From the NCBI GenBank assembly GCA_031286985.1, contig JAITTL010000021.1, positions 1 through 54,149 of the forward strand: 54,149 bases of DNA, given 5' to 3'. The DNA comes from Endomicrobium sp. Lineage in GTDB: Bacteria > Elusimicrobiota > Endomicrobiia > Endomicrobiales > Endomicrobiaceae. Shown here in pieces: positions 16,147 to 33,783 of this stretch (its first letter is position 1; each line of letters opens with the position of its first letter). Position numbers and translations under genes: made by a program. The notes under the pieces are model-generated. The model made no database searches and had not been told where the DNA came from. It saw only the letters and a list, made by a program, of their open reading frames with translations.

Positions 16147-17682
16147 ATGAAAAAAATTGTTTTGGCAATTTTATTAGTTTTTTTATCTGCGATTGTCGGC
16201 TGCACATGGGTGAAAGTGACTCCTTATGGAGCAGCTGGTACGGTTACAGGTAGCTGTTTTCTTTTAGAAATAGAAGGTTTTAAAGTTATCATCGACTGTG
16301 GTTTATTTATGCCAAATGAAATTGAAAATGCAGAGTTGAAAAATTCCAAAATTGAACCAGAGCTTGTTAATGCAGACGTCCTCGTTTTGACACATGCCCA
16401 TTTAGACCATAGTGGGAAGATTCCTCTTTTAATACATAAAGGATTTAAAGGTAAAATTTATTCTACACAACCTACAAAAGAGCTTGTGTTGGCTCTTTTT
16501 AATGATAGAAATGGATATGATTTAATAGAAAGAAAATGGTTTTGGGCTGAAAGAAAAAAAGGGAAAACTCAACGTAATAAATGGGCCATTGTTGCTCATT
16601 GGAGAAATAGATGTAAATGGAATATGAAATCTGTCAGATGTTTATGCAACAAAATCCTATTAAAGGATTTGGAGAAAAAAGAAAATATTAAATTTTTACT
16701 ATGTAAAAATTGTTGCGAAGAAGAAACCGCTACAATGGAGCGGTATTTTGTTACGGTAAATTATAATGAGTATGTTAAATTTTCTGACAATTTTAAAGTG
16801 AAATTTATAAATGCTGGACATATCCCCGGTTCCGCAAGTTTGATTTTTGAAGTTGATAACAAAAAGATTTTATTTTCTGGAGATTTAGGCAATGGCTATT
16901 CCAGATTTACTGGGAAGTTTGACATTCCTGAACCAGTTGATTGTGTCTTTATGGAAGCTACTTGTGGTGGCAAAAAAAATAAGGATATTGAGGAACAATA
17001 TCATGTCTTTAGAAGCGATTTAAAACATGCAATTTCTTCAGGAAAAACAATTTGGATTCCAGCTTTAGCTCTTAATAGAACTCAAAAAGTTTTATATGAA
17101 CTAAAACTTATGCAAGATAATATGGATCTATCAAAAGATATATCGATCTATTCCGTCTCTCCTAGTGCTAATACAATAACAGCTCTATATCAAAAAGAAG
17201 TAAAAACCGGGAGAGGGAACTGGTTTTTAAACGATGTCTATCAAAAAAAATCAGTTTTACCGGAAAATGTAAAATTTGAAATGATAAGAAATTATGATTC
17301 ACAGATGATCATATTTTCCGCAAGCGGTGATATGGATAACGGGAAATCGGTACAACTTATGCCTGAAATGTTAACGAAAAAGAATGTTTTTGTGATGATA
17401 GTCAATTACGTAGATCAGGAGAGCAATGCAGGGCTCATTATTCAAAATAAAAAAACACGTTCTGGCATAAAAAGTGTTGCAAAAATAAAGAAGTATGATG
17501 TTTTTTCGGACCATGCTGATTTTTATGTATTGCAAAACTGGCTTTCAGAACAAAATAAAAATGTCAAAATATGTATAATTCATGCAGGTGAAAAGAATGC
17601 AAATGATATGTTAAAATTGCTGCAAAATGATGGCTGGAAAAATGTGGAAAGTGCAAAAATTGGTATCAAATTTGAACTTTAG
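16147..17682 (+). CDS. Beta-CASP metallo-beta-lactamase (RNase J/CPSF-like) with lipoprotein-like N-terminus
   Basis: 511 residues. Zinc motifs are THAHLDHSG, AGHIPGSA, FSGDLG and a C-terminal FSDHAD. GKTIWIPALALNRTQKVLYEL and MIIFSASGDM are typical of the beta-CASP insertion of nucleases acting on RNA or DNA. Two points are odd. First, residues 1-19 form a hydrophobic leader ending IVGC, a good lipobox with C19. An in-frame GTG at 16210 (residue 22) would instead give the canonical cytoplasmic start of the family. Neither start has a ribosome site. Second, six cysteines (156, 165, 167, 186, 189, 190) lie in an insertion before the third motif and could bind metal. The 274-base region before it holds no gene. 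Confidence 0.8.
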   Translation: MKKIVLAILLVFLSAIVGCTWVKVTPYGAAGTVTGSCFLLEIEGFKVIIDCGLFMPNEIENAELKNSKIEPELVNADVLVLTHAHLDHSGKIPLLIHKGFKGKIYSTQPTKELVLALFNDRNGYDLIERKWFWAERKKGKTQRNKWAIVAHWRNRCKWNMKSVRCLCNKILLKDLEKKENIKFLLCKNCCEEETATMERYFVTVNYNEYVKFSDNFKVKFINAGHIPGSASLIFEVDNKKILFSGDLGNGYSRFTGKFDIPEPVDCVFMEATCGGKKNKDIEEQYHVFRSDLKHAISSGKTIWIPALALNRTQKVLYELKLMQDNMDLSKDISIYSVSPSANTITALYQKEVKTGRGNWFLNDVYQKKSVLPENVKFEMIRNYDSQMIIFSASGDMDNGKSVQLMPEMLTKKNVFVMIVNYVDQESNAGLIIQNKKTRSGIKSVAKIKKYDVFSDHADFYVLQNWLSEQNKNVKICIIHAGEKNANDMLKLLQNDGWKNVESAKIGIKFEL

Positions 17683-32736: not shown

Positions 32737-33783
32737 ATGAATTTTTGGAAAAGGTCTTGCAATATATTTTTTATGTGTATATGGTTTGTTTGTGTATTAG
32801 CCGGGTGTAAAACTGAAAAAGCTCCCGTGGGACGGGTTCGACGTGGTTTTAATCAAATTATAGAAAAATTTACGATAGTGCAGACCAGTAAAGGGAAATT
32901 AAAAATTATATTGGAAGCAGAATCTGCTATCATGGATGGAGATAAAGGTGTTGCTCATGCAAAATTTGTCAAAGCAAAAATTTATGATAATGGTAAATTT
33001 GCCTCAATGTTGACTGCAGAAGTTGCAAACATAGATATGGTTACAAATGATGTTTATTGTGCAGGTAAGTGTGTTTTGGATAGTGCAAATAATGAACATT
33101 TAGAAACTACTGATTTAATGTACAGTGCGGGTAAAGATTTAATTTACAGTAACAATAGTGTAAAGATTACAAGATCTGGAGAGATATTGTATGGCACGAG
33201 TTTTAGATCAAACACAAAACTCGATAAGATTACCGTTGAAAATCAAAAAACGGTGCTTAAAGAGAGGGCTGTGGTAACAGGGGATAAGCTGGAATTAAAA
33301 AGGGAAAATGGTAATATTGCAACTTGTAAAGGTAACTCAAAGATTTTTAATAAAGATGTTACAATTACAGCTGATAAAATAGCTTATAACGAGATGAAAT
33401 CTGATGTTTATGCATCTGGTAATGTTAATTTGTCATCCAAAAATCAAAAAGAAGGAACATTTCAAGCGTATGGTAATTTTGCGCAGTATAGTGTCGTTAG
33501 TCAAAAAGGGGAAATGTGTGAAGATGTTAAGGTAATCAGTGAAGATGAAAAAAGCATCTGTACTATTTATGCGGATAAAATCAACACGAGTAAAAATGGG
33601 CAAACAATAAATGTTGATGCCTGTCAAACAATCGAAAAAAGACCAACTGCAACAATTTTCAGCAGTGTTTTTGATGGAGATTTTATAGCGGACAAAATGA
33701 TGCTATCTTATGATGGGAGTAAAGAGCAAAAAAAAATAAATATGAGTGGAAATGTTTCAGCACATATTAAAATAAAAGATTAG
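32737..33783 (+). CDS. LptC/LptA-like LPS transport lipoprotein (possible fusion)
   Basis: 348 residues. A hydrophobic leader ends in VLAGC with C24, a lipoprotein site. The first half (about 40-175) resembles LptC/YrbK (ESAIMDGDKGVAHAKFVKAKIYDNG, then VYCAGKCVL). The second half (about 175-345) has OstA/LptA repeats: AVVTGDKLELKRENG, ITADKIAYNEMKSDVYASG and ADKMMLSYDGSKEQKKINMSG. LptC and LptA normally form the periplasmic beta-jellyroll bridge that carries LPS from LptB2FG to the outer membrane. Here both parts appear in one lipidated protein, directly before lptB. The assignment is by fold pattern and position. Confidence 0.75.
   Translation: MNFWKRSCNIFFMCIWFVCVLAGCKTEKAPVGRVRRGFNQIIEKFTIVQTSKGKLKIILEAESAIMDGDKGVAHAKFVKAKIYDNGKFASMLTAEVANIDMVTNDVYCAGKCVLDSANNEHLETTDLMYSAGKDLIYSNNSVKITRSGEILYGTSFRSNTKLDKITVENQKTVLKERAVVTGDKLELKRENGNIATCKGNSKIFNKDVTITADKIAYNEMKSDVYASGNVNLSSKNQKEGTFQAYGNFAQYSVVSQKGEMCEDVKVISEDEKSICTIYADKINTSKNGQTINVDACQTIEKRPTATIFSSVFDGDFIADKMMLSYDGSKEQKKINMSGNVSAHIKIKD

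Follow-up and report, generated by a model that had tools for sequence, protein, structure and literature searches.

The stretch of DNA analysed here, referred to as the window, comprises 54,149 nucleotides from an Endomicrobium sp. (contig JAITTL010000021.1 of assembly GCA_031286985.1), whose genome of 984 kb is 95% complete and distributed over 34 contigs. At positions 16,147 to 17,682 of the forward strand, flanked by dnaA on one side and by a gene for a SpoU methylase on the other, it carries an open reading frame for a protein of 511 residues, which is predicted to be an exported nuclease of the metallo-beta-lactamase (MBL)/beta-CASP type. Its features are listed below; counts out of 36 refer to an alignment of orthologues.

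16147..17682, forward strand: coding sequence of the MBL/beta-CASP nuclease-like protein, 511 residues, predicted to be exported (ATG start; orthologue alignment)
16147..16200, forward strand: predicted signal sequence, residues 1–18, with an n-region KK and a hydrophobic core (hydrophobic N-terminus in 36/36)
16201..16203, forward strand: C19, putative lipobox cysteine (IVGC; lipobox in 1/36 rows, the window copy only)
16210..16212, forward strand: GTG codon 22, proposed alternative start (GTG in this column in 4/36; not conserved)
16393..16410, forward strand: MBL motif 2, HAHLDH, residues 83–88 (H83, H85, D87 and H88 in 36/36)
16507..16746, forward strand: inserted cysteine- and tryptophan-rich segment, residues about 121–200 (spacing, alignment and model)
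16597..16614, forward strand: H151-W152-x3-C156, first half of a proposed zinc site (H151 in 36/36; C156 in 35/36, with one His)
16702..16713, forward strand: C186-x2-C189, second half of the proposed zinc site (36/36 each)
16819..16821, forward strand: MBL motif 3, H225 (36/36)
16882..16884, forward strand: MBL motif 4, D246 (35/36; Asn in L015)
16954..16956, forward strand: beta-CASP motif A, E270 (36/36)
17080..17427, forward strand: Beta-CASP domain (PF10996), residues 312–427 (44.3 bits, Pfam cut-off 27.7)
17512..17514, forward strand: beta-CASP motif B, H456 (36/36)
17581..17583, forward strand: beta-CASP motif C, H479, the RNA-type residue (35/36; Asp in L015)

The protein belongs to the TTHA0252/CPSF-73-like MBL/beta-CASP class and comes from an Endomicrobium-type genome. 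The initial annotation of the frame as beta-CASP nuclease-like agrees with the domain matches: Lactamase_B (46.7 bits) and Beta-CASP both exceed their Pfam cut-offs, and RMMBL falls slightly under its own. Elsewhere in the window, positions 32,737–33,783 of the forward strand encode a second predicted lipoprotein with a VLAGC lipobox, and lipoprotein processing is therefore plausible in this organism; we take the remainder of that product to resemble an LptC/LptA-type protein.

Our searches covered 99 relatives first and then, with a profile, 340 genomes of the phylum; the search of genome_contigs used one protein as its query and so returned close relatives only. The genus has full-length orthologues, as do most of the family's other genera; of the 35 family genomes from these other genera, 29 match strongly, and two of the 29 matches are truncated at contig ends. 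Outside the family, the best match of the profile search has an E-value of 6e-47, and the matches listed are split into segments between which the middle region is not aligned; relatives there score far lower, and those inspected have no signal sequence. The orthologue alignment consists of 36 intact sequences that span the family of the window's genome. It leaves out L001 (the window itself), L031 (a duplicate of the gene in L002), L038 (truncated at a contig end), the decayed copies L039–L042, the non-exported homologues L043–L046, the partial copies of G054 and G025:C33, and the family orthologues from the later profile search. The partial copy G025:C33:1-1092, which lies beside a TPR gene and is 61% identical to the query, is a second one in its genome and may represent a paralogue or a second strain in the bin. 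A further genome of the genus, G033, encodes a different beta-CASP protein (L043, 1947–3602) without a comparable hydrophobic N-terminus.

The N-terminus of the 511-residue protein reads MKKIVLAILLVFLSAIVGC. Its best 12-residue Kyte–Doolittle mean is at least 2.34 in every one of the 36 aligned orthologues, as against 1.92 at most among 19 comparators. The latter comprise 15 relatives from viral_contigs, with some duplicate rows, and four non-exported homologues; none of the 19 reaches the orthologue minimum. Since all orthologues have this hydrophobic N-terminus and none of the 19 comparators does, it is, as judged from the sequences, not due to chance. The export signal that had been proposed to precede the domain is thus borne out, and in the comparison of orthologue N-termini that the initial annotation had suggested, none begins at residue 22; in all 36, the residues ahead of this position are conserved as a signal sequence. 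An ATG lies ahead of it in 35 orthologues, a count that, as we picked the start codons ourselves, records where an ATG is available; the remaining orthologue begins with ATA. That translation starts instead at the GTG at 16,210, yielding an ordinary cytoplasmic RNase, is extremely improbable: this codon lies in frame immediately ahead of the fold, and on inspection by eye no ribosome-binding site is clearly visible before the ATG, but GTG occurs in its column in only four of the 36 orthologues, and the hydrophobic stretch is present in all of them.

With regard to processing, a loose signal-peptidase-I pattern matches 22 of the 36 orthologues; in a few of them it matches away from the likely site, and it misses other sites such as LFAD. 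The window copy, whose signal sequence ends in I-V-G-C, fits the lipobox pattern and is probably a lipoprotein, as originally annotated; this reading applies to the window copy, the lipobox being absent from the other 35. Altogether, the sequences support export of the nuclease. It would leave the cytoplasm by the Sec route and act outside it; in much of the family, signal peptidase I probably releases it into the periplasm, and the window copy is probably tethered as a lipoprotein.

The gene has recurrent neighbours. Among 21 loci, a membrane-anchored TPR gene is found in 12 and adjoins the nuclease gene in 11, sometimes with an overlap of a few bases; argS (12 loci), a small membrane protein (11 loci) and a DEDDh exonuclease cluster (12 loci) are likewise frequent. 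In four loci of other genera (L158–L161), the nuclease gene directly follows or overlaps a gene for a 716-residue membrane protein with a spermine-synthase domain. Annotation of eight recurrent neighbour proteins revealed no competence genes. This arrangement would fit an ancestral operon of argS, nuclease, TPR protein, small membrane protein and DEDDh exonuclease that acts on tRNA or mRNA at the membrane, a reading to which the frequent and direct adjacency of the TPR gene and the recurrence of the exonuclease lend some weight. We nevertheless find it quite improbable. Many genomes of the genus keep an intact nuclease gene while the TPR gene is decayed or undetected (e.g. G000, G007, G010, G020, G024, G032, G035 and G038), which argues that the nuclease is independent of the TPR gene and weakens the case for the TPR protein as its functional partner. 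Moreover, the signal sequence would place the nuclease across the membrane from the exonuclease.

The catalytic part of the protein is well conserved. Besides the motif residues listed above, D50 is kept in all 36 orthologues, and the ten catalytic residues are all intact in 35 of them, the exception being L015 from genome G007 with the exchanges D246N and H479D. An AlphaFold2 model built on the alignment has a mean pLDDT of 90.6 and a pTM of 0.90. Across nine close pairs, dN/dS ranges from 0.11 to 0.32, pointing to purifying selection, and from 0.08 to 0.48 within the insertion, with the most distant pair near saturation. Sequence and model together support a beta-CASP fold with a complete di-metal active site, and nuclease activity is predicted. 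Overall, we consider it likely that the protein is an exported and active beta-CASP nuclease. A histidine at motif C is taken as a mark of RNA enzymes according to PMC3095777, but it is a weak predictor of RNA as the substrate, because a Val-to-His exchange in SNM1A is described as leaving substrate choice unchanged (PMC7458816).

The distance between H83 and H225 is 132–144 residues in the orthologues and 100–101 in the four non-exported homologues, which corresponds to a net insertion of about 31–44 residues. The initial annotation had pointed to six extra cysteines in this region, and the window copy indeed has six between residues 156 and 190 (C156, C165, C167, C186, C189 and C190), of which C156, C186 and C189 are conserved. 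The others do not share this conservation: C190 occurs in 25 of the 36 orthologues and C165 in three, and at the position of C167, cysteine does not rank among the five most frequent residues. The conserved set can be written as HWx2-3C...Cx2C, L009 having one residue fewer between the positions of H151 and C156, and the further cysteines are lineage-specific. We infer that the insertion provides a second zinc site, structural in nature and formed by H151, C156, C186 and C189. A zinc site is preferred over disulfides because one relative has a histidine in place of C156, and exchanges of cysteine for histidine are typical of metal ligands. Disulfides, formed in an oxidising periplasm with no zinc bound, would suit an exported protein whose window copy has 11 cysteines after residue 22; they appear unlikely, however, given that the conserved set comprises one histidine along with three cysteines and that the genus Endomicrobium inhabits anoxic guts. 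When the insert was folded alone (pLDDT 84.5), Foldseek found no match in the PDB better than an E-value of 1.4, and a Pfam search of the 36 inserts gave no family that matches more than two of them; this absence of matches is not evidence of a new fold.

As regards the cellular process in which such a nuclease might act, its distribution appears to follow that of DNA-uptake genes within the genus. Across 41 genomes, the nuclease gene is intact in 23; four others (G012, G018, G027 and G037) have a decayed copy with stops inside the frame, and the remaining 14 have no match, a weak match that was counted as lacking the gene (G008 and G017) or only another homologue (G033). ComEC is intact in 22 of the 41 genomes, as is DprA. 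The nuclease and ComEC are both present in 21 genomes and both absent from 17, with the nuclease alone in two (G036 and G040) and ComEC alone in one; the counts against DprA are identical, and phi is 0.85 in each case. Among the exceptions, G034 has ComEC and DprA without the nuclease gene, and G007 and G023 have the nuclease without DprA. G007, which keeps ComEC, is the genome whose nuclease is the sole copy with two catalytic changes; in G023, the active site of the nuclease is intact. In G018 (1.1 Mb), the nuclease gene, comEC and dprA all contain stops, and M16, LpxC and UvrB are intact.

The three families used as controls give lower values, namely phi 0.48 for M16 peptidase (any paralogue; kept in 10 of the 18 genomes without the nuclease gene), 0.40 for UvrB (9 of 18) and 0.30 for LpxC (11 of 18). 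In many genomes M16 is represented by several paralogues; of the controls, M16 and LpxC were placed on the tree described below. In these counts, the decayed LpxC of G007 was scored as absent, and the fragmentary LpxC of G038 and the UvrB of G000, which has one TGA, as present. This UvrB match (G000:C25:397-522), which belongs to the window's own genome but lies outside the window, has its TGA in frame, possibly as a sign of a decaying repair gene or of an assembly error. The LpxC of G038 (G038:C1:882867-883329) consists of two short fragments in a 99%-complete genome, and loss of lipid A synthesis is possible there.

On a LigA tree of 39 of the 41 genomes (G008 and G022 having no LigA match), the nuclease gene changes state at least seven times. 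Supported branches provide four independent pairs, in which ComEC and DprA change along with the gene in 2.6 cases on average and against it in none, as compared with 0.2 concordant cases for M16, and 0.7 concordant and 1.0 opposite cases for LpxC. The sign test for ComEC and DprA has a median p of 0.25, a value to be read in light of the fact that four pairs cannot reach significance. In the 35 other genomes of the family, the fit of the nuclease to ComEC is looser than in the genus: nuclease and ComEC are both present in 26, the nuclease alone in three (G041, G331 and G339), ComEC alone in three (G051, G055 and G337), and neither in three. In this termite-gut family, the exported nuclease tends to be lost together with DNA-uptake genes, and the phyletic evidence suggests a link between the two. 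A live alternative is that the co-loss may only mirror general genome decay. Competence genes are reported to be conserved and expressed in Endomicrobium (PMC8809381), in an article whose main text does not contain the word ‘nuclease’, and according to PMC11257099, competence functions do not differ notably between lineages that are free-living and those that are endosymbiotic, a statement that does not fit easily with the losses in small genomes seen here.

A link to DNA uptake raises the matter of the nuclease domain of ComEC itself. Within the family, 52 genomes have a ComEC match, and 48 of the proteins were examined, i.e. all except those of G018 (decayed), G035, G051 and G053 (partial). 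None of these 48, four of which are cut at their 5' end, matches Pfam Lactamase_B, as compared with 14 of 22 ComEC proteins from elsewhere in the phylum (one of the 22, L094, being cut by the end of its locus). The domain is not fully retained outside the family either. In the same order, two of six ComEC proteins have no Lactamase_B match and a third lies just below the cut-off, and in other families (L083–L104), motif 2 is degenerate, with L084 reading THPHFPHYSG as an example, and no ComEC sequence examined matches the pattern [STA]Hx[HD]xDH. Judging from these motifs, the loss of MBL motif 2 across the phylum is an erosion of the ComEC nuclease. Because ComEC proteins of other families and of the same order are also degenerate or lacking in this respect, the loss is not tied to the beta-CASP gene alone, and we rejected the idea that the ComEC nuclease was lost exactly when the beta-CASP gene appeared. 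ComEC proteins without this domain are common in general: almost half of them are said to have no C-terminal nuclease domain, with the fate of the other strand given as an open question (PMC8579336), Lactamase_B is reported in 52.3% of ComEC-type proteins (PMC6299819), and the ComEC of Helicobacter pylori is described as likewise devoid of it (PMC5031224).

Replacement by an EndA-type nuclease was considered and rejected. The corresponding Pfam family, PF01223, is matched in two of 76 family genomes (G335 and G337), both without the beta-CASP gene; none of the other 74 genomes, many of them incomplete, has a match. The two matches (L256 and L257) lie on contigs of 3,119 and 4,695 bases among neighbours that look foreign, Bacteroidales-like in style, and are likely contamination. 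If they were genuine, such a swap would favour a role of the beta-CASP protein in uptake.

On these grounds, we propose that the exported nuclease may act in the periplasm to cut nucleic acid, within DNA uptake or alongside it, and that it would supply in trans the activity that the family's ComEC lacks. We put this role forward tentatively, as a possibility suggested by co-occurrence and by the state of ComEC. The more specific scenario, in which the strand-degrading nuclease of transformation moved off ComEC to an exported beta-CASP enzyme with a zinc site in the periplasm, we regard as marginally less likely. Alternatively, in line with the scavenging suggested by the initial annotation, an exported RNase or nuclease might break down nucleic acid, be it RNA or DNA, found in gut fluid or inside the flagellate host cell and so make nucleosides available for uptake, unrelated to transformation. 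Scavenging is at least as likely as the DNA-uptake role, because motif C carries the RNA-type histidine, as it does in 35 of the 36 orthologues; it is also favoured by the closest solved structure, TTHA0252, which is titled an RNA degradation protein, and by the fact that family members with larger and with smaller genomes alike have the gene. We hold it to be quite conceivable, if short of probable, since by itself it does not explain why, within the genus, the gene co-occurs with ComEC and DprA over the three controls. If the proposed link to uptake were true, the nuclease would be one answer to how a ComEC without a nuclease domain copes with the other strand, and a candidate component of the DNA-uptake machinery of endosymbionts in which gene acquisition continues.

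Beta-CASP enzymes are known to process RNA and DNA in the cytoplasm or the nucleus. A literature search on exported beta-CASP proteins and on metallo-beta-lactamases of Endomicrobium returned no report of an exported beta-CASP protein in the texts and excerpts that it covered. What appears to be new here is thus the export of one representative of an enzyme family already known; a signal sequence conserved on a beta-CASP enzyme across an entire bacterial family would represent a new location for this fold.

Among known systems, the closest solved structure is that of TTHA0252 from Thermus (3idz; Z 42.7, rmsd 2.0, 410 residues aligned, 27% identity). Like other bacterial MBL-fold RNases, TTHA0252 has the MBL/beta-CASP architecture and active-site motifs in common with the window nuclease; its residue 1, however, aligns to residue 22 of our model, and it has no signal sequence. 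The extra 31–44 residues with the conserved histidine and cysteines are likewise absent from the four non-exported homologues measured. CPSF-73 and archaeal CPSF/FttA (Z 28.9–38.1) share the motifs, including the histidine of motif C, whereas the window nuclease has no N-terminal KH domains and is, by prediction, exported. In NCBIfam, it scores 150.9 bits against a cut-off of 580.2 for aCPSF1/FttA, 35.5 bits against 400 for RNase J (subfamily model), and 189.7 bits against 800 for Cas14, the nuclease of type VII CRISPR systems, which is its best match among both NCBIfam families and PDB sequences. Because these scores lie far under the cut-offs, the nuclease is, by sequence, not placed in Cas14 or aCPSF1; among the eight neighbour proteins that were annotated (the remaining neighbours were clustered only), none is a Cas protein. 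A role in defence was rejected, the only match being a weak one to LmuA (E-value 2e-4, 18.5 bits). So was a viral origin: the 15 viral_contigs relatives are 22–34% identical over their best segment, and none has a comparable hydrophobic N-terminus.

Under the proposed role in uptake, the systems to compare are the C-terminal MBL domain of ComEC and EndA of Streptococcus pneumoniae, which would fill the same slot, that of a nuclease at the inner membrane, on its outer side. According to PMC5031224, Pfam at that time contained no protein combining a beta-CASP with a Competence domain. The window nuclease differs from the MBL domain of ComEC in being a separate protein and in having a beta-CASP domain.
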